Assembly: GCF_024498135.1 (NCBI RefSeq)
Contig: NZ_JANHOH010000001.1
Coordinates: forward strand, 310,001 to 374,000
From: Mucilaginibacter aquariorum
Lineage (GTDB): Bacteria > Bacteroidota > Bacteroidia > Sphingobacteriales > Sphingobacteriaceae
Length of the DNA: 64,000 bases
Direction of reading: 5' to 3'
In this document: one piece after another, positions 38,059 to 47,237 of the stretch
How positions within the stretch are numbered: the stretch's first letter is position 1
Layout: the number at the start of each line of letters is the position of its first letter
Made by a program: the position numbers and the translations under genes
Notes under the pieces: model-generated
Seen by the model: only the letters and a program-made list of their open reading frames with translations
What the model was told of the DNA's origin: nothing
The model's database searches: none

Positions 38059-38117
38059 TGGTTCATTAGTTCAATGTGCATTGGTATTGGATGCACTACC
38101 AATCGACTAATGAACCA
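38059..38117. terminator. Nested inverted repeat between convergent genes
   Basis: TGGTTCATTAGT at 38059-38070 pairs perfectly with 38106-38117, and GTGCAT/ATGCAC pair inside it. The right arm runs 11 bp into the 3' end of the ion channel gene. With no T-run it is a poor intrinsic terminator, but it may separate the two convergent transcripts. Confidence 0.5.
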
Positions 38118-39051
38118 TATTATAATCACCAATCTTACTCATATCTAACTCAATCCTTCCATCTTCATCCCGGTTAAACATGGGGATGAATTTTGCATCC
38201 CAAACCATATCATGGGCGGTATAGGAGGTACGTGAATGCACCGTTTGTGAAAATGTATCGTCAAAAGCTTTGAGCAATACCGCGAACGATGCTGCACCTT
38301 TTTCCAGATCATCGAGCGTCATATCCATCAATGGGCTATTTTCATCCAAAGGGTGCACAACCGTCCAGTTAAGGGTTAGCAAACTCACAAACTTACGTTC
38401 AACCTCCAACGGGAAAAAGCGCCTTATAGGTTTATCATTAACCATTTCATTGTAGGAAAATATTACCTCTACCTGTAAGTCGATCAATACATTTTTACGG
38501 ATGTTTGCCAGTCGGAACATTAAACCCCGGCCATTTTCCTTGTATGGCGCTACCAATATATTATCGCTGTAAACAATTTTTGCTGATGGTTTTGAGAAAC
38601 GACCATATAATAAACCTGTTGCCAAAGCAAAGGCCAGTAAGCCTATCATTGATTCAAAGGCAGCTACACTGTTTGCCACCACGCCCCGCGGACTAATATG
38701 CCCGTAACCCACCGTTGATATGGTTTGTGCCGAAAAGAAAAAAGCATCTAAAAGATGGCTCATATGGTTATTGCCCGATGCACCGTCGAGGCTATCCATC
38801 CCTATTAAAACATATATAGATGCGAAAAACAGGTTGGCAATTAAATAACCGCTAAGCACCACTACCCAGAACTTTGTCCAGCTCATTTTTATAAGCGTGT
38901 GGTAAGTATCGGCAGTGTTAAACCGCGAAAGTCCTCTGCGTTTAACATTTACCGAACCATCCTTATTAATAAGCGGCTGGCTTTTTATAACAGGCTGGGG
39001 GCCAAAGCCAAGGTCATTTTCGGGGTTAACTTGTTGATTGCGAATAGCCAT
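38107..39051 (-). CDS. Inward-rectifier-type potassium channel (KirBac-like)
   Basis: The 314-residue protein has TM1 (FWVVVLSGYLIANLFFASIYV), a pore helix and the K+ selectivity filter TVGYGHISP, TM2 (SMIGLLAFALATGLLYGRFSKP), then an Ig-like cytoplasmic domain of about 170 residues typical of Kir channels (IVYSDNILVAPYKENGRGLMFRLANIRKN). The slide-helix region precedes TM1. Such bacterial channels conduct K+ and are gated by the cytoplasmic domain. It diverges from the trp operon; the 290-bp gap contains repeats near 39060-39140 and the trp leader. Confidence 0.93.
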   Translation of the reverse strand: MAIRNQQVNPENDLGFGPQPVIKSQPLINKDGSVNVKRRGLSRFNTADTYHTLIKMSWTKFWVVVLSGYLIANLFFASIYVLIGMDSLDGASGNNHMSHLLDAFFFSAQTISTVGYGHISPRGVVANSVAAFESMIGLLAFALATGLLYGRFSKPSAKIVYSDNILVAPYKENGRGLMFRLANIRKNVLIDLQVEVIFSYNEMVNDKPIRRFFPLEVERKFVSLLTLNWTVVHPLDENSPLMDMTLDDLEKGAASFAVLLKAFDDTFSQTVHSRTSYTAHDMVWDAKFIPMFNRDEDGRIELDMSKIGDYNMVH

Positions 39052-39210
39052 GCGTTAATTAGTGATTTGGTGAATTAGTGATTTATTGATTAAAAAGTGA
39101 AAGACTGCCAAATCAGGCATTCAATAAATCAGTAAATCAATAATTGCTCTTCGTAAAAATATCATAAAGCTTGCTTTTAGTGAAAACAATTTCCATATTT
39201 GCTAAACAAA

Positions 39211-39264
39211 ATGAAAGTGCAAATATTAAACAACAATTGGTGGTGGCTTAACGAGAATTCGTAA
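39211..39264 (+). CDS. trpL: trp operon leader peptide
   Basis: The 17-codon ORF encodes MKVQILNNNWWWLNENS and ends at TAA (39262-39264). Three consecutive Trp codons (TGG TGG TGG, 39238-39246) in so short an ORF upstream of trpD are the mark of an attenuation leader. Its stop codon is directly followed by the antiterminator 5' arm (39265-39272). If a ribosome stalls at the Trp codons the antiterminator can form; if it reaches the stop it masks that arm, and the terminator at 39302 forms. No strong Shine-Dalgarno is seen, as usual for the phylum. Confidence 0.8.
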   Translation: MKVQILNNNWWWLNENS

Positions 39265-39330
39265 GGCAGCCTCATTTTTTGTTTTTTTATAAAATATACA
39301 GAAGGGTTGCCACATGGTAACCCTTTTTTT
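39265..39330 (+). promoter_or_regulatory. trp attenuator (antiterminator and terminator)
   Basis: Alternative pairings can be read. Antiterminator: 39265-39272 (GGCAGCCT) with 39304-39311 (GGGTTGCC), with two G-U pairs. Terminator: 39302-39311 (AAGGGTTGCC) with 39316-39325, ten base pairs with one G-U and a four-base loop, followed by five more T to 39330. The two share 39304-39311, so they are exclusive. A leader hairpin at 39247-39265 (CTT-A-ACGA, GAAT loop, TCGTAAG) may be the pause structure. The terminator ends 12 bp before the trpD start. Confidence 0.8.
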
Positions 39331-39341
39331 ATGCCACAAAT

Positions 39342-40331
39342 ATGAAACAGATACTCAACCATCTTTTTGAACATAAAACCTTCACCCGCGAGCAATCAAA
39401 AGATATTTTGAAGAACATTGCTTTGGGTAAATACAATAATTCGCAAATGGCGGCCTTTATGACGGCCTATTGTATGCGTAGTATTACCGTAAACGAACTG
39501 GAAGGTTTCCGTGATGCCATGCTGGAGCTTTGCCTGCCAATTGATTTGGAAACAGGCGAACTGATTGATCTTTGTGGTACGGGTGGGGATGGTAAGGATA
39601 CTTTCAATATCTCAACCCTGGCATCATTTGTAGTGGCCGGGGCAGGGTATAAGGTAGCTAAACATGGCAATTATGGTGTATCGTCGGGTTGTGGGTCATC
39701 CAACGTAATGGAGCATCTGGGTTATGTGTTCACCAATAATGCCGATGCACTTAAACGCAGCATTGATAACGCGAATATCTGTTTCCTGCATGCGCCGCTA
39801 TTTCATCCAGCCATGAAAACTGTTGCACCTATCCGCCGCGAATTGGGCGTAAAAACTTTTTTTAATATGTTGGGGCCCATGGTAAATCCGGCTAAACCGC
39901 AAAACCAGTTAGTAGGTGTGTTTAACCTGGAGCTGGCAAGGGTATATGCATACCTGTATCAAAAATCAGATGTAAAATATACTATTCTGAATGCGTTAGA
40001 TGGTTATGATGAGATCTCGCTTACCTGCGATTTTAAAACCTTTTCTGCCGAAGGAGAAAAGATAAACAGGATTGAAAGCCTTGGTTTTGATAAGCTGAAT
40101 GAAGATGAGATAACCGGCGGGCATACCGTTAGCGATTCGGCCGATATATTTATGAAGGTGCTTAACAATGATGCTACCAAGGCACAAAGCAATGTAGTAT
40201 TAAGCAATGCCGCAATGGCCATTAAAACCATTCACCCGGAAAAAAGCTTTGCAGATTGCTTTTACGAGGCAGAGGAATCGCTGGTAAGCAAAAAGGCATT
40301 GGGCAGTTTTAAAACCTTATTAGCTAATTAA
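39342..40331 (+). CDS. trpD: Anthranilate phosphoribosyltransferase
   Basis: TrpD joins anthranilate and PRPP, the second step of the tryptophan branch. The 329-residue protein has DLCGTGGDGKDTFNIST at 77-93 (PRPP-binding), KHGNYGVSSGCGSSNVMEHLG, and FLHAPLFHPAMKTVAPIRRELGVKTFFNMLGPMVNP. The GTGGDG loop is intact. An ATG at 39331 hits a stop after four codons, so 39342 is the start. It lies behind the attenuator and is followed after 1 bp by trpF. Confidence 0.96.
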   Translation: MKQILNHLFEHKTFTREQSKDILKNIALGKYNNSQMAAFMTAYCMRSITVNELEGFRDAMLELCLPIDLETGELIDLCGTGGDGKDTFNISTLASFVVAGAGYKVAKHGNYGVSSGCGSSNVMEHLGYVFTNNADALKRSIDNANICFLHAPLFHPAMKTVAPIRRELGVKTFFNMLGPMVNPAKPQNQLVGVFNLELARVYAYLYQKSDVKYTILNALDGYDEISLTCDFKTFSAEGEKINRIESLGFDKLNEDEITGGHTVSDSADIFMKVLNNDATKAQSNVVLSNAAMAIKTIHPEKSFADCFYEAEESLVSKKALGSFKTLLAN

Positions 40332-40332
40332 G

Positions 40333-40974
40333 ATGAAAATTAAAGTTTGCGGATTAAGAGATCCTGATAATATTAAAGCTGTTGAGGGGTTAACGCCCGA
40401 TTATATGGGCTTTATTTGTTATGAAAAATCGCCACGTTTTATTGGTGGTATGGATGATGATGAACTGGTAAAAATATCTACCGATATTATTAAAGTGGGC
40501 ATTTTTGTTGATGAGGATGCCGATAACATTAGTAAGCTGATCTACAAATACAAGTTTGATGCGATACAGCTACACGGAGCCGAAAGCCCGGAGTTTTGCG
40601 ACATGTTTAAGCACGAGGTGCAGGTGATAAAGGCATTTGGTGTAGACAAAAATTTTGATTTCGCACAGCTTGATGCCTATAAGAACAATGTAAATTATTT
40701 TCTGTTCGATACTAAGACAGCTGCACATGGCGGTTCGGGCAAAACATTTGATTGGAGCATACTGAATAAATATAAGCTGGATGTCCCTTTCTTTTTATCA
40801 GGCGGATTAAGTCCCAACAACCTGGAGGATGTAAAACAGATACAGCACCCTGCGTTTTACGGGGTGGATTTGAACAGCAAGTTTGAAGTATCACCAGCAT
40901 TAAAAGACATAGATAAATTAACACAGGCATTTAATACAATAAATACATTTAACAGCAATGAAGTACGGAGTTAA
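40333..40974 (+). CDS. trpF: Phosphoribosylanthranilate isomerase
   Basis: TrpF makes CdRP by Amadori rearrangement. The 213-residue TIM barrel begins IKVCGLRD with the catalytic Cys7 and has [53 protein letters not shown] with the catalytic Asp, and [20 protein letters not shown]. Its gene starts 1 bp after trpD and overlaps trpB by 17 bp. trpC, which usually sits between trpD and trpF in Bacteroidota, is absent. Confidence 0.95.
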
Positions 40975-42139
40975 CGAAAACGGTTATTACGGAGATTTTG
41001 GTGGCGCATATATACCGGAAATGCTGTATCCAAATGTTGAAGAATTAAGGCAGGAGTACCTTAAAATATTAAGCGACCACAGCTTTAAGGCCGAGTTTGA
41101 CCAGTTATTAAAAGATTACGTGGGAAGGCCTTCGCCATTGTATCATGCAAAAAGATATTCTGAAAAATATGGTGCTAATATTTTCTTTAAGAGAGAAGAT
41201 CTGAACCATACAGGTTCGCACAAAATAAATAATGCCATTGGACAGATCTTGTTAGCGCAACGCCTTGGCAAAAAACGCATTATCGCCGAAACCGGTGCGG
41301 GTCAGCATGGAGTAGCAACCGCTACAGTGTGTGCCTTAAAAGGCATTGAATGTATTGTTTATATGGGCGAAATTGACATGGAGCGGCAGGCACCAAATGT
41401 GGCGCGTATGAAGATGTTAGGCGCAAAGGTAGTGCCGGCAACATCGGGCAGTAAAACGCTTAAGGACGCCACCAATGAGGCCTTGCGCGACTGGATAGGC
41501 AACCCGGTTGATACCCATTACATCATAGGCTCGGTTGTAGGCCCGTATCCTTACCCGGATATGGTAGCGCGTTTCCAGGCAATTATATCTGCAGAAACAA
41601 GAAAACAACTGCTGGAGCAAACAGGTAACGAATTACCGCAATATGTTATGGCCTGTGTAGGCGGTGGCAGTAATGCTATGGGGATGTTCTATCATTTCTT
41701 AGATGACGAGAATGTGAAGCTGGTTGCTGTTGAAGCGGCAGGAAAAGGTGTAGATAGCGGCCACTCGGCAGCCACCACATTTTTAGGCAAAGAAGGCGTA
41801 TTACACGGTAGCCGTACCATATTAATGCAAACTGCTGATGGACAGGTAGAAGAACCCTATTCAATATCTGCCGGCTTGGATTATCCTGGTATAGGCCCGC
41901 AGCATGCACATTTATATAAGATAAACCGTGCCCAATATGTAAGCATTACCGATGATGAGGCTTTGGATGCCGGACTGCTTTGCTCGCAAATGGAAGGTAT
42001 TATACCTGCCATTGAAACCGCACACGCCCTGGCTTATTTAGAAAAAATGACTTTCCAAAAAAGTGATAATGTAGTGATATGCCTATCAGGCAGGGGAGAT
42101 AAGGATCTTGATACCTATATCAGGCATTTTGGTTTTTAA
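40958..42139 (+). CDS. trpB: Tryptophan synthase beta subunit
   Basis: TrpB condenses indole and serine on PLP. The 393-residue protein is of the TrpB1 type: the N-terminal [37 protein letters not shown] with the PLP Lys at 89, [29 protein letters not shown] for phosphate binding, and CLSGRGDKD. Its start lies inside trpF (17-bp overlap), so translation is coupled. No trpA follows before the permease cluster, so the alpha subunit must be elsewhere. Confidence 0.97.
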
Positions 42140-42221: not shown

Positions 42222-42279
42222 GTAACTGTATCATAACCGAACACGTACTGTTACAGTTACGTACATATTGTACAGTTAC
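42222..42279. promoter_or_regulatory. Operator array upstream of six-permease operon
   Basis: GTAACTGTA at 42222-42230 and its reverse complement TACAGTTAC at 42252-42260 and 42271-42279, with TGTAC words between. The 21 bp from 42222 to 42242 recur exactly at 57218-57238 upstream of the ATPase-TolC operon. Downstream is a possible -7 element (CAACTTTG at 42314-42321) before GGTATAT, which also occurs at the other site. Confidence 0.65.
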
Positions 42280-42360
42280 CTATCTATCCAAATAGTTAAT
42301 TATCAGTATTTTACAACTTTGGTATATGTTTTAGCCTTTATAAAACATAATACCATAGCT

Positions 42361-44784
42361 ATGTTAAAAAACTATTTTAAAATTGCCTGGAGAAACATCG
42401 TTCGCCATAAGGCATATTCCATTATAAATATTTCTGGTTTAAGCGTGGGCATTGCCTCATGCCTGTTAATATTTGTTGTACTGCGGTTCGAGCTTAGCTT
42501 TAACAAATACAATAGCAATTTTAAGGATATTTATCACCTGGTTACCAAGCAAACCGCCGAGGATGGCATAAACTTTAATCCCGGTGTATCTGTACCTGCA
42601 CTTGATGCCTTAAGAATCGATTTCCCGCAGGTGAAATTTGCCGCGTTAACTTCAAGTTATGGGAGCCAGATGACCGTACCCACCGGTTCTGATAACGCTG
42701 CTGCGGATAAGAAATTTATAGAGTCCATTGGCGTGTTCTTTATGGAACCCCAGTTTTTTGATATTTTCCAAACCAAATGGCTTAACGGAACAAAAGATGT
42801 GCTTTCTCAGCCCAACATGGTTGTTATTACTAAGGCTATTGCCACCAAATACTTTGGCGATTGGAATACGGCGATAGGTAAAACCATTAAAATGGATAAC
42901 ACCTTAACCTTAAGAGTTGCCGGCGTGGTTGAGGATTCACCAAATAACAGCGATATACCATTGAAGTTAATGGTATCGTATATTACCTGGAAACAAACAG
43001 GAAATACCTATAACTACAACACTGACTGGGGATCTATTAGCAGCAATCACCAGATATTTTTGCAATTACCTGATAATTTAAGCCCTCAGAAATTTGAGGG
43101 CCAACTGGTTGGTTTCACCAAAAAGAATTTAACTGATAAGCAGCGTAGCCTGCGCGAACACCTTGCTCAACCGCTTGGCGCAATGCACTTTGATACTAAG
43201 ATAGGCAATACGCTTGGCGATCACTCCACCAGCAAGGCTACCATTAATACGTTAACATTTATTGCCGTTTTAATTATCCTAATGGCATCCATCAACTTTA
43301 TTAATCTTTCAACTGCTCAATCGGTTGGGCGTTCAAAAGAAGTAGGCATCCGTAAGGTATTAGGGAGCAGTCGTAAACAGCTGGTTTCGCAGGTAATAGG
43401 CGAAACCACAATGGTGATCATGTTCTCGGTGATATTGGCCATGGTAATAGCAAAAATAGCATTACCGTACCTCAAAAATATTTCAAGCGTACCTGATGAT
43501 ATCAGTTTGTTAAATACCGATACGGTAATATTTCTGTTTTGCACTATGCTGGCGGTAATATTATTGTCGGGTATTTATCCCGCACTGGTAATATCGGGCT
43601 TTAAGCCGGTTGCAGCGTTAAAAAACAAGATAACTGCCGCGTCAATAGGTGGCATACCGTTACGCCGTGCATTGGTTGTAGCACAGTTTGCTATTGCGCA
43701 GCTGCTTATCATTGGTACAATAGTGGCGGTAAACCAAATGAATTTTGTGAATGAGGCTGACCTTGGCTTCAATAAAAATGCGGTTTTGGTTATTCCCGGT
43801 TATACCGATAGCATCAGCCTGAGCAAAATGCAATCGTTTAAGCAACAAATTTTGCAAAATCCGGATGTTAAGTCGATGAGTTTTGCTTCGGATGCACCAT
43901 CTTCTGATAACAACTGGGGTTCGAATTTCTATTTCAACAACTCCATGAAGGATATAAACTTTACTACATTTTTAAAGTTTGCCGATGGTGATTACTTTAA
44001 AACCTATGGGCTAAAATTTGTTGCAGGTAAGGAATACGACAGCAACGATACCGCCCGGCAAGTTGTTGTTAACGAGACTTTTATTCATAAACTTGGCATC
44101 CAAAAGGCCGAAGACGCAATTGGTAAAACGGTTAAGTTAGGAGGCGGGAAGCGTTGGTTACCTATTACCGGCGTTGTAAAAGATTTCAAGACCAATTCGT
44201 TACGTGATGCAGTGAAACCCATCTACATAATGACTCAAAAACAGTACGAATCACAAGTGGCTGTTAAAATCCAGACAAAAAACCTTTCCAAAACAACCAA
44301 AGACATTCAAAAGCTTTGGGAAAGTACTTACCCGGAATATGCTTACAACGGCTATTTCCTTGACGAGAATATCGCACGGTTTTACAGGCAGGAAAATCAA
44401 ATGGCCTTGGTTTACAAGATCTTCTCGGCTATCGCCATATTCATATCGTGCCTGGGTTTATATGGCCTGGTATCGTTTATGGCCGTACAGCGTACTAAAG
44501 AAGTTGGGGTGCGTAAAGTATTAGGGGCATCAGTATTCAGCATTGTGTTGCTGTTCTCAAAAGAGTTTATGATACTCATAGCCATATCATTTGTAATAGC
44601 TATGCCGGCAGCGTGGTATATGATGTCGGGCTGGTTGCAAAACTTTGCCTACCGCATACCATTAACAGCGGGCGTATTTGTGCTGGCTATTGTATCATCT
44701 ATAGTGATAGCGTGGCTAACAGTAGGTTATAAAGCAGTTAGGGCGGCACTGGTAAACCCGGTGAAGAGCCTAAGAAGTGAATAG
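42361..44784 (+). CDS. ABC transporter permease, MacB/FtsX type, copy 1
   Basis: The 807-residue protein (start ATG at 42361; an upstream ORF extension from 42268 is rejected because all paralogues start with the M-x-K-N-Y-F-K motif) has two MacB-like halves: TM1 at about 20-42, a periplasmic MacB_PCD domain, TM2-4 at about 290-420, then TM5, a second periplasmic domain and TM6-8. Two coupling segments for the ATPase are seen: RSKEVGIRKVLGSS near 323 and RTKEVGVRKVLGAS near 710. It ends NPVKSLRSE. Such double permeases work in mechanotransmission or lipoprotein-type export. It heads the operon after the operator at 42222. Confidence 0.93.
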   Translation: MLKNYFKIAWRNIVRHKAYSIINISGLSVGIASCLLIFVVLRFELSFNKYNSNFKDIYHLVTKQTAEDGINFNPGVSVPALDALRIDFPQVKFAALTSSYGSQMTVPTGSDNAAADKKFIESIGVFFMEPQFFDIFQTKWLNGTKDVLSQPNMVVITKAIATKYFGDWNTAIGKTIKMDNTLTLRVAGVVEDSPNNSDIPLKLMVSYITWKQTGNTYNYNTDWGSISSNHQIFLQLPDNLSPQKFEGQLVGFTKKNLTDKQRSLREHLAQPLGAMHFDTKIGNTLGDHSTSKATINTLTFIAVLIILMASINFINLSTAQSVGRSKEVGIRKVLGSSRKQLVSQVIGETTMVIMFSVILAMVIAKIALPYLKNISSVPDDISLLNTDTVIFLFCTMLAVILLSGIYPALVISGFKPVAALKNKITAASIGGIPLRRALVVAQFAIAQLLIIGTIVAVNQMNFVNEADLGFNKNAVLVIPGYTDSISLSKMQSFKQQILQNPDVKSMSFASDAPSSDNNWGSNFYFNNSMKDINFTTFLKFADGDYFKTYGLKFVAGKEYDSNDTARQVVVNETFIHKLGIQKAEDAIGKTVKLGGGKRWLPITGVVKDFKTNSLRDAVKPIYIMTQKQYESQVAVKIQTKNLSKTTKDIQKLWESTYPEYAYNGYFLDENIARFYRQENQMALVYKIFSAIAIFISCLGLYGLVSFMAVQRTKEVGVRKVLGASVFSIVLLFSKEFMILIAISFVIAMPAAWYMMSGWLQNFAYRIPLTAGVFVLAIVSSIVIAWLTVGYKAVRAALVNPVKSLRSE

Positions 44785-44822
44785 TTAAGAGTTTAGGTAT
44801 TGAAATTTATCATTTAAATTAT

Positions 44823-47237
44823 ATGTTAAAAAATTATTTTAAAACGGCCTGGCGTAGTTTGCTCCGTAACAAAAGCTATGCTATTATAAACATCACAGGG
44901 CTTGCCATTGGCATAGCAGCCTGCCTGCTTATATTTTTAGTGATCCATTTTCAAACCGGTTTTGACACCTATCATGCTAAAAAAGACCGCATTTATCGCG
45001 TGTTAAATAAACGCACCTCGTCTGAAGGTGTTAAACTAAGGGCGGGTTTACCATTGCCTATAGCAAGAGATTTGCGCGTTGACTTCCCCCAATTACCGCT
45101 GGTAACAACTGTTATTAACGATCAAGGGAAACAAATAAGCGTTAAGGATAAGGCAGGACAAATCAAAAGATTTAAGGAAACAGACCTTTATATTACCGAC
45201 ACACAATTTTTTAACGTATTTGACTTTACATGGTTATCCGGCGATAAAAAAACAGCATTGAACGAACCCAATACCGTAGTGCTTACGCAGCGCATGGCAA
45301 AGAAATACTTCGGCGATTGGGAAAATGCGATGGGAAAAACTCTCACTTACGAAAACAAGATAGATCTTAAAGTTACCGGTATACTGCAAGACCTGCCTTT
45401 AAATACTGATTTACCTGTAAGCATCGCGATATCGTACCCAACTATTAAAAAGACTGACTATAATAACAACCTTGAAGACTGGAACAGCAATTTTGGATCG
45501 CATAATTGCTTTATTGTATTGCCCGAGAATGTAAGCGAAGCACGTTTTAACCATGATTTGGTGGCGTTTATAAAAAAACACCGCCCTGATGAAGCTAAAA
45601 GAGAAGCATTTTTATTGCAACCGTTAACTGAAATGCATTTTGATACCCGTGTTGGCTTATTCAGCGGGCAAGTATTTAGTAAAGACATGATCAAGACATT
45701 AAGCCTTATTGGTGTGTTTTTACTGGTAATTGCGTGTGTTAATTTTATAAACCTAGCCACAGCACAGGCGGTTAATAGGTCTAAAGAGGTGGGTATAAGG
45801 AAGGTATTAGGCAGCAAGCGTAAACAACTTATCATGCAGTTTTTAAGCGAAACATTTATCATAACTCTGTTTTCTGTAGTGTTGGCGATGGGTTTAAGCG
45901 AAGCGGCTTTACCTGCATTAAATGGCCTGCTCGAAATAAAACTTAGTTCCGGCTTTATTACCGACCCGATTATTGTAACATTTTTAGCAGTGGTACTTAT
46001 TGTAGTTACCTTATTGTCCGGCTTGTATCCTTCCATGGTGCTATCCGGCTTTAATCCAATAGCTGCATTAAAAAACAAAATTACCGGTGTCAGGAGCAAC
46101 GGTATTACCTTAAGGCGCGGCCTTGTTGTGGTGCAGTTTGGCATAGCACAAGTGCTGGTAATAGGCACCATAGTTATTATCAGCCAATTAAATCATTTCA
46201 AAAACTCGCCACTGGGCTTTGATAAAGATGCTGTAATAACAGTAAACTTACCCAACGACAGCATCAGCCGGCTAAGGATGACTGCTTTACGGAACGAAAT
46301 ACTACAGCAGCCTAATATTAAAAGTTTTAGCTACAGTTTTAGCAGCCCGTCTGATAATATAAACTGGGGTAGCCCGATAACGTATGATAATGCGGCTGTT
46401 GAAACCGAATTTAGGGTGAATTTGAAATGGGCCGATGCTGATTACTTTAAGTTATATGATCTGAAGTTTGTTGCCGGCGGGCCTTACGCTAAGAGCGATA
46501 CTGTAAAAGCTTATGTGGTTAACGAAACACTTCTAAAAAACCTTGGGGTGACAAACCCTAAGGATGCCATTGGCAAAACCATAAATATTTGGGGTGATAA
46601 AAACTTAACTCAAAAAATTGTTGGTGTGGTAAAGGATTTTAATGTTACATCGCTACGCGAACAAATACCACCGGTAGTTATGGCAGCCTGGACAGGGCAA
46701 TATGGTATAGCCAATATCAAGCTTTCGCCAACTAATATGCAACCCACCCTGGCAGCCATTGAAAACCTGTGGACAAAAACCTTCCCCGATAATGTTTACG
46801 AACACAAATTCCTTGATCAAAAAATAGAGAATTTTTATAAAAAGGAAAGCCAGCTATCTCAACTATACAAAATATTCGCGGGTATAGCCATTTTTATATC
46901 GTGCCTGGGCTTGTATGGTATGGTATCGTTTATGGCGGTACAGCGTACTAAAGAGGTAGGCATACGTAAAACACTGGGTGCGTCGGTAGCAAATATTGTG
47001 TACCTGTTCTCAAAAGAGTTTACCGTGCTTATTCTGATATCCTTTGTTATTTCGGCGCCTGTTGCGTGGTATTTTATGCAGCAATGGCTTCAGGGGTTCA
47101 CGTATCGCATACATCCCGGTTTGGGGATATTTGCTATATCTATTGCATTATCCATCATAATTGCATGGGCAACCGTAGGATACAAGGCCATAAAAGCCGC
47201 GCTTGTTAATCCTGTAAAAAGCTTACGCAGCGAGTAA
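44823..47237 (+). CDS. ABC transporter permease, MacB/FtsX type, copy 2
   Basis: The 804-residue paralogue is closest to copy 1: both have QRTKEVG in the second coupling segment (FMAVQRTKEVGIRKTLGAS near 704), LFSKEF after it, and a similar NKITG...ITLRRGLVVVQFGIAQVL helix entry. N-terminus MLKNYFKTAWRSLLRNK and C-terminus NPVKSLRSE are conserved. First coupling segment RSKEVGIRKVLGSK near 318. It starts 38 bp after copy 1. A hairpin lies behind it at 47264. Substrate is unknown. Confidence 0.93.
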   Translation: MLKNYFKTAWRSLLRNKSYAIINITGLAIGIAACLLIFLVIHFQTGFDTYHAKKDRIYRVLNKRTSSEGVKLRAGLPLPIARDLRVDFPQLPLVTTVINDQGKQISVKDKAGQIKRFKETDLYITDTQFFNVFDFTWLSGDKKTALNEPNTVVLTQRMAKKYFGDWENAMGKTLTYENKIDLKVTGILQDLPLNTDLPVSIAISYPTIKKTDYNNNLEDWNSNFGSHNCFIVLPENVSEARFNHDLVAFIKKHRPDEAKREAFLLQPLTEMHFDTRVGLFSGQVFSKDMIKTLSLIGVFLLVIACVNFINLATAQAVNRSKEVGIRKVLGSKRKQLIMQFLSETFIITLFSVVLAMGLSEAALPALNGLLEIKLSSGFITDPIIVTFLAVVLIVVTLLSGLYPSMVLSGFNPIAALKNKITGVRSNGITLRRGLVVVQFGIAQVLVIGTIVIISQLNHFKNSPLGFDKDAVITVNLPNDSISRLRMTALRNEILQQPNIKSFSYSFSSPSDNINWGSPITYDNAAVETEFRVNLKWADADYFKLYDLKFVAGGPYAKSDTVKAYVVNETLLKNLGVTNPKDAIGKTINIWGDKNLTQKIVGVVKDFNVTSLREQIPPVVMAAWTGQYGIANIKLSPTNMQPTLAAIENLWTKTFPDNVYEHKFLDQKIENFYKKESQLSQLYKIFAGIAIFISCLGLYGMVSFMAVQRTKEVGIRKTLGASVANIVYLFSKEFTVLILISFVISAPVAWYFMQQWLQGFTYRIHPGLGIFAISIALSIIIAWATVGYKAIKAALVNPVKSLRSE

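Follow-up and report, generated by a model that had tools for sequence, protein, structure and literature searches.

Attenuation requires a ribosome that moves close behind RNA polymerase. In the trp attenuator of Escherichia coli (trpL), a leader ORF with tandem Trp codons is followed by RNA strands 1–4, and strands 3 and 4 form a terminator with a U-run before the trp genes. For Sinorhizobium meliloti, the RNA of the trp attenuator is described as starting at the trpL AUG itself (PMC7298713). In the phylum Bacteroidota, the report on Flavobacterium psychrophilum mentions signs that amino-acid operons may be attenuated through leader peptides; its main text contains neither "trp" nor "tryptophan", and its supplement may already include a trp case (PMC9723704). 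Small ORFs in long 5′ UTRs have been said to recall leader peptides (PMC7366714), leader genes have been counted in Bacteroidetes (PMC4833913), and one article states in a passage on this subject that outside the Proteobacteria and Actinobacteria none were known except ermC and its own Firmicutes case (PMC2965389). Among the papers listed in our literature search, we found no description of a Bacteroidota trp attenuator. A 2010 comparative survey by Lopatovskaya et al. may include Bacteroidetes cases, and therefore we make no claim to a first report.

Here we analyse a 131-nt element (39211–39341) within the window, which is the whole 64,000-nt stretch of Mucilaginibacter aquariorum DNA under study. 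With high confidence we take it to be a trp transcription attenuator of the classical, ribosome-mediated kind that controls trpD-trpF-trpB, and very probably it switches the trp genes off when tryptophan is plentiful. The mechanism itself is known; the novelty lies in the phylum, the spacing between promoter and AUG, and the duplication on a split operon. Similar Trp leaders recur in many Bacteroidota.

Gene context of the element

A partial operon, trpD-trpF-trpB, lies directly 3′ of the element on the forward strand. The first gene (39342–40331) matches the anthranilate phosphoribosyltransferase model TIGR01245 with 300.7 bits, over its cut-off, in line with an earlier note on this DNA that had the operon start with trpD. 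It is followed on the same strand by trpF (phosphoribosylanthranilate isomerase, 40333–40974), which is over the cut-off of PF00697 and falls short of the cut-off for the NCBIfam model that fits it best, and by trpB (tryptophan synthase beta, 40958–42139), over the cut-off of TIGR00263. Divergent from the attenuator, the reverse strand carries a gene with inward-rectifier potassium channel domains (38107–39051; PF01007, PF17655). Two long permease-like genes stand in tandem after trpB (42268–47237, forward strand); MacB_PCD and FtsX domains were identified in the first, and the second resembles it by sequence reading.

The other trp genes of this genome lie elsewhere: trpE, trpG and trpC together on contig C7, and trpA alone on contig C1 at 736 kb. 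The products of trpG, trpC and trpA each pass the NCBIfam cut-off, and that of trpE is over the Pfam cut-off (PF04715) and below that of the best NCBIfam model. No Trp leader was found in the stretch read around the lone trpA (C1:736480).

The split arrangement is shared by relatives. Among 80 named loci, 62 begin with trpD and have no trpE, trpG or trpC in the stretch covered. They come from Mucilaginibacter, Pedobacter, Pelobium, Pararcticibacter and Sphingobacterium and from metagenome bins titled Sphingobacteriaceae, Sphingobacteriales or Bacteroidetes. In 53 of these 62, trpA follows trpB; it is missing there in six loci near the window's own (L032–L036 and L067), and in three (L047, L081 and L093) the stretch ends before the position of trpA. 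The remaining 18 loci, from other families, have the order trpE-G-D-C-F-B-A; for one of them (L100), the stretch covered shows neither B nor A. TrpD is present in 59 of 61 genomes drawn from Mucilaginibacter, the genus of the named relatives with the highest TrpD identity.

Leader ORF and RNA strands

All parts described here are on the forward strand. The leader ORF (39211–39264), which was read from the sequence and is kept in relatives, encodes the peptide MKVQILNNNWWWLNENS in 17 codons, from an ATG at 39211 to a TAA at 39262–39264. Its three Trp codons occupy 39238–39246. Three Trp codons are found in 78 of 82 distinct aligned homologues and two in the remaining 4, in a set picked by a loose pattern (TGGTGG plus a terminator arm), so that two Trp codons are present by construction.

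Strand 1 (39246–39254), identified by folding and covariation, overlaps the Trp codons and forms a protector stem with the first part of strand 2 (39259–39272). In this 1:2 stem, 39246–39249 and 39251–39254 pair with 39259–39262 and 39264–39267. The outer pairs are G39246-C39267, C39247-G39266, T39248-G39265 and T39249-A39264; the mismatch A39250 × A39263 separates them from the inner pairs A39251-T39262, C39252-G39261, G39253-C39260 and A39254-T39259. The stem is present in the minimum-energy fold of the 131 nt. The second part of strand 2, 39265–39272 (GGCAGCCT), begins at the base right after the leader stop codon and forms the antiterminator with strand 3, 39304–39311 (GGGTTGCC), in eight pairs, two of them G-U. 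Strand 3 is also part of the 5′ arm of an intrinsic terminator (39302–39330), whose stem (39302–39311 with 39316–39325) has ten pairs, one of them G-U, a loop ACAT and a T-run at 39324–39330. The 2:3 and 3:4 stems are mutually exclusive, with strand 39304–39311 common to both. Since strand 2 has two partners, strands 1 and 3, the four-strand logic is complete. The earlier note had already reported the triple-Trp leader, the antiterminator with its arm starting just behind the stop codon, and the competing ten-pair terminator with its T-run, and we found each of them at the same positions.

The 131-nt region folds with −36 kcal/mol (z −3.68), a stability equalled by 1 of 200 shuffles. The terminator at 39302–39330 is absent from the output of a consensus terminator scan, which is presumably due to the overlap of its stem with the T-run.

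Within the window, no Rfam family reached the gathering cut-off, and T-box and riboswitch readings were dropped on that ground. T-box and TRAP control trp genes in other phyla, and a Trp-sensing RNA of one of these types would need no ribosome as the sensor. Here the absence of an Rfam family argues against it, as do the mere 36 nt from the start of the leader ATG to the end of the Trp codons and a structure centred on those codons; we consider such a sensor exceedingly improbable.

Only the 39211 leader, among 27 matches to TGGTGGTGG..AA in its genome, several of which overlap, is a short ORF (ATG or GTG start, at most 60 codons) with a terminator within 150 nt. Two further short ORFs with WWW (L135 and L140) are without a terminator, and that of L135 is surrounded by unrelated genes and partly antisense. 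A covariance model of the element, R1, has a single match at E ≤0.001 in this genome, which is the 39211 element.

Promoter motif and predicted start

Just upstream of the leader lies a promoter-like motif of the Bacteroidota type. The earlier note ascribes promoter signals of its own to this phylum and does not list the motif. The main Bacteroidota promoter is given as TAnnTTTG at −12 to −5 (PMC9723704), and TTTG near −33 as a promoter element of the phylum (PMC7366714). The −7-like box of the window, CATATTTG (39194–39201, forward strand), resembles this consensus, with a C in place of its first T, and a −33-like TTG (39171–39173, forward strand) stands 20 nt upstream of it. From the position of the box, the transcription start is predicted at 39206 on the forward strand, about 5 nt before the AUG.

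The motif is kept at this place. The same box, CATATTTG, occurs in 63 of 82 homologues and close variants in the others, and 79 of 82 have a TTG that precedes the box by 18–20 nt. The distance from the box to the first in-frame ATG or GTG, which may differ from the actual start codon, is 5–16 nt in 79 of 82; L027 (19 nt) and L088 (54 nt) are outliers, and L032 has CATATTTG and then 10 nt to its ATG. A 5′ UTR of about 1–12 nt is therefore predicted across the homologues, and of 5 nt in the window. For comparison, only about 3.7% of 5′ UTRs in Bacteroides thetaiotaomicron are reported to be shorter than 10 nt (PMC7366714), and 5.5% of the mRNAs examined in F. psychrophilum to be leaderless (PMC9723704).

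Conservation upstream of trpD

We collected 105 distinct regions upstream of trpD, 87 of which are trpD-first and belong to Sphingobacteriaceae and near relatives. A leader with adjacent Trp codons is present in 86 of these 87. In 84, a WW or W.W leader lies within 450 nt and is accompanied by a terminator in an unanchored hairpin scan; in L065 and L068, the leader is located beyond 450 nt. The remaining trpD-first region, on a Sphingobacteriaceae contig (L093:850–1290), has neither a leader nor a match to R1. The loss of the Trp codons in close relatives, which would have spoken against an attenuator, is thus not what these regions present. A W.W ORF in L095, the 85th leader among the 105 regions and not trpD-first, was taken as chance.

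R1 was built from the 82 distinct sequences and matches all 86 leader-bearing regions, most of which were used in building it. In the window, whose own sequence is inside the model, the match extends over 39229–39329 of the forward strand with 103.8 bits. Among 61 whole genomes drawn from the family, some of which (G000, G004 and G028) belong to the training set, 48 have a match at E ≤0.001 and 13 have none. One locus (L012, from genome G057) has a trpD frame with an internal TAG and a leader with two Trp codons instead of three.

The leader peptide is variable outside its core. Just ahead of the Trp run, at 39229–39237, each of three successive codons specifies Asn in 43–45 of 46 Mucilaginibacter rows, with AAC and AAT alternating, and hence the residues themselves seem to be kept. 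This feature bears on the possibility that the terminated leader RNA or the peptide acts in trans, besides or instead of in cis, as rnTrpL and peTrpL do. In S. meliloti, the trp attenuator RNA is reported to destabilise the trpDC mRNA of a second operon (PMC7298713); here, too, the trp genes are split, the leader is predicted to be nearly leaderless, and Asn persists despite the codon switching. Action in trans nevertheless seems unlikely to us, because both split operons carry a cis attenuator of their own and because the peptide varies outside the core.

Covariation of the stems

In a plain MAFFT alignment of the 82 distinct sequences, 91.9% of the cells in the 1:2 and 3:4 stems are paired, against 26–49% in slid controls, which preserve sequence relatedness. 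Both sides have changed in 73 cells, against 23.8 in shuffles, which ignore relatedness, and 0 of 500 shuffles reach this number; 8 pairs have changed on both sides, a value reached by 25 of 500 shuffles. Compensatory examples are U20-G43 to A-U, U21-A42 to C-G and A26-U37 to C-G, and the third terminator pair changes from G-C to A-U or C-G. A model-fitted alignment, which contains only matches at E ≤0.0001 and leans towards the structure, gives 96.9% paired cells (24–46% in slid controls), 9 pairs and 76 cells, each measure being reached by 0 of 500 shuffles.

The antiterminator behaves differently. The 2:3 cells are paired in 88.0% (plain; 20–53% when slid) and 90.9% (model-fitted; at most 54% when slid), while the covariation score is unremarkable, since 350 of 500 and 500 of 500 shuffles reach it, respectively. 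In the plain alignment, 11 cells have changed on both sides, which 1 of 500 shuffles reaches and five of six slid versions exceed; in the model-fitted alignment, there are 2 such cells, and 261 of 500 shuffles reach them. Strand 2 must fit two partners, and this may be the reason for the scarce covariation in 2:3, though it is no proof. An alignment of relatives had been proposed earlier as a check; in it, the Trp codons are kept, the 1:2 and 3:4 stems covary, and the 2:3 stem is kept with little covariation.

Computed switch between the folds

We computed the free energy with which strand 3 is sequestered for different ribosome positions. The ribosome was taken to cover the RNA as far as 12 nt past the base that opens the A-site codon, with folding ended ahead of strand 4; the footprint size is a general background value. 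For the window, the sequestration amounts to −2.1 kcal/mol in free RNA and −1.2 kcal/mol with the ribosome at the stop codon, and to −11.8, −11.6 and −11.7 kcal/mol with the ribosome at the first, second and third Trp codon. The medians over the 82 homologues are −1.8 kcal/mol (free), −8.5, −7.5 and −7.8 kcal/mol (first, second and last Trp codon) and −1.2 kcal/mol (stop). In this computation, stall and stop positions give opposite folds, and the idea that a ribosome at the stop codon masks the antiterminator arm and a stalled one leaves it free is borne out for the window (−1.2 versus −11.8 kcal/mol).

As a control, the linker was shuffled with its dinucleotides kept. A ribosome at the stop leaves strand 3 less tightly held than a stalled one, with a margin of 4 kcal/mol or more, in 79 of 82 homologues versus 21 of 410 shuffles, and free RNA falls short of the stalled state by the same margin in 71 of 82 versus 9 of 410; both differences are present in 69 of 82 versus 6 of 410. 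In the window, 0 of 1000 linker shuffles reach the observed difference between stall and stop. A cruder measure, the pairing probability, took in any weak pair of strand 3 across a broad upstream range and told stop and stall apart poorly; its median at the stop is 0.64, and just 22 of 82 homologues have more than 0.5 when stalled and less than 0.2 at the stop. The terminator has −16.3 kcal/mol in the window and a median of −16.0 kcal/mol over the homologues. It exceeds the antiterminator in stability, so the switch has to be a kinetic one.

Genes are often preceded by terminators, and one might suppose that an unregulated terminator simply follows a short translated ORF and that the leader tunes the basal expression of trpD without sensing tryptophan. 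Such a terminator gives no reason for adjacent Trp codons in 86 of 87 trpD-first regions, for a covarying 1:2 stem, or for a stall/stop energy difference beyond that of shuffles, and we regard it as highly improbable.

Attenuators upstream of trpE

The trpE-G-C operon of the same genome has a leader of its own upstream of trpE, MKRTTLNTNWWHYVKTWQAG, with the terminator CCCGGCGAACGCTCAATTCGCCGGG-T7. Since this operon carries an attenuator of the same kind, two cis elements probably regulate the split trp pathway together.

Leaders of this type are widespread before trpE. A draw of 128 genomes from the phylum gave 118 with a TrpE match at E ≤0.001, and 70 of the 118 upstream regions were examined, namely the 30 best as loci and 40 chosen by hand, about one per genus. 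Of the Bacteroidia whose TrpE match is strong, 28 of 28 have a WW or W.W leader ORF within 350 nt of trpE (27 with a terminator), a count that leaves out G077, G101, G105 and G175, whose weak matches (E 1e-39 to 1e-43) perhaps represent a paralogue. In other classes, 27 of the 42 genomes chosen have the leader, 18 of them together with a terminator; in a genus draw it is present in 29 of 29 (25 with a terminator). Plain shuffles, 20 per upstream region, gave a leader in 0.5–1.9% and none with both leader and terminator. With a looser box pattern than in the trpD survey, the distance from box to start is 7–10 nt for every one of the 29 trpE leaders in the genus draw and 16–20 nt in nine other Bacteroidia; outside the Bacteroidia, 12 of 27 trpE leaders have no box even with this looser pattern.

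In Fulvivirga marina (L103:1647–1913), two complete tandem trp attenuators, each with its own terminator, precede trpE. Their leaders are MKNNSLNNAWWWHYTKTW and MRTLIYINKVWWWHFSHIGE; the latter was read off by eye.

R1, which was built from trpD elements, matches 16 of 18 trpE-first loci of other Bacteroidia at E ≤0.03 and the trpE attenuators of other Bacteroidia in 20 of 23 loci at E ≤0.012 (29–55 bits). The weakest of these matches are unsafe, since stray matches or matches on the opposite strand have E values down to 0.046 in the first of these searches and 0.0082 in the second. On trpE attenuators of its own family, that of the window's genome included, the best of 34 has 24.4 bits (E 0.09). 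The model thus scores trpE attenuators of other families above those of its own, and this gives the trpD element the look of the older type; the same picture would arise if the trpE copy had changed faster.

Proposed mechanism and origin

In the mechanism that we infer for the attenuator, RNA polymerase would start a few nucleotides before the leader AUG, and a ribosome would load at the 5′ end and follow the polymerase. When Trp-tRNA is ample, the ribosome would reach the stop codon at 39262 and cover strand 2, the 3:4 stem would form, and transcription would end near 39330. When Trp-tRNA is scarce, a ribosome stalled at 39238–39246 would cover strand 1, and strands 2 and 3 would pair before strand 4 is made, allowing readthrough into trpD. 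In untranslated RNA, the 1:2 stem would protect strand 2, and the terminator would form. The sequence-level predictions of the earlier note, which had called the element a classical attenuator, hold; its account lacked strand 1, the predicted near-leaderless start, the attenuator of trpE-G-C and the wide distribution.

A broader reading of the origin is tentative, and we consider it possible but somewhat doubtful as a whole. Leaderless classical attenuation may be old in the Bacteroidota, with a sigma-ABfr start so near the AUG that ribosomes would load on the 5′-terminal AUG and not by a Shine-Dalgarno sequence. When the operon split in the Sphingobacteriaceae, the ancestral trpE attenuator may have stayed with trpD-F-B(-A), and trpE-G-C may have acquired a second attenuator or strongly remodelled one. 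The two cis sensors would then coordinate the halves of the pathway with no need for a common repressor, and tandem attenuators such as those of Fulvivirga would plausibly represent an intermediate.

With its conservation and its predicted 5′ UTR of 1–12 nt, the trp attenuator offers a simple test system for the onset of coupling in this phylum. Genetic tools for Bacteroidota might use it as a regulator, and it exemplifies a cis regulator that follows its genes upon the split of an operon.

Comparison with known attenuators

The element shares with trpL of E. coli the leader ORF with tandem Trp codons, strands 1–4, the terminator with its U-run, and the position before trp genes. Unlike trpL, it has three Trp codons, a predicted 5′ UTR of a few nucleotides and a promoter motif of the Bacteroidota type, and it matches no Rfam model at cut-off. 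It precedes trpD instead of trpE, and a second attenuator is found on trpE-G-C. The leader peptide clues in F. psychrophilum come from the same phylum as the element of the window (PMC9723704). The likeness to trpL/rnTrpL of S. meliloti, as described there, lies in the attenuator of a split pathway and in the leader ORF at the 5′ end of the RNA, which is predicted in our case (PMC7298713). In S. meliloti, according to the same source, trpE(G) is attenuated in cis and the trpDC mRNA is destabilised in trans, whereas here both operons carry attenuators (PMC7298713).
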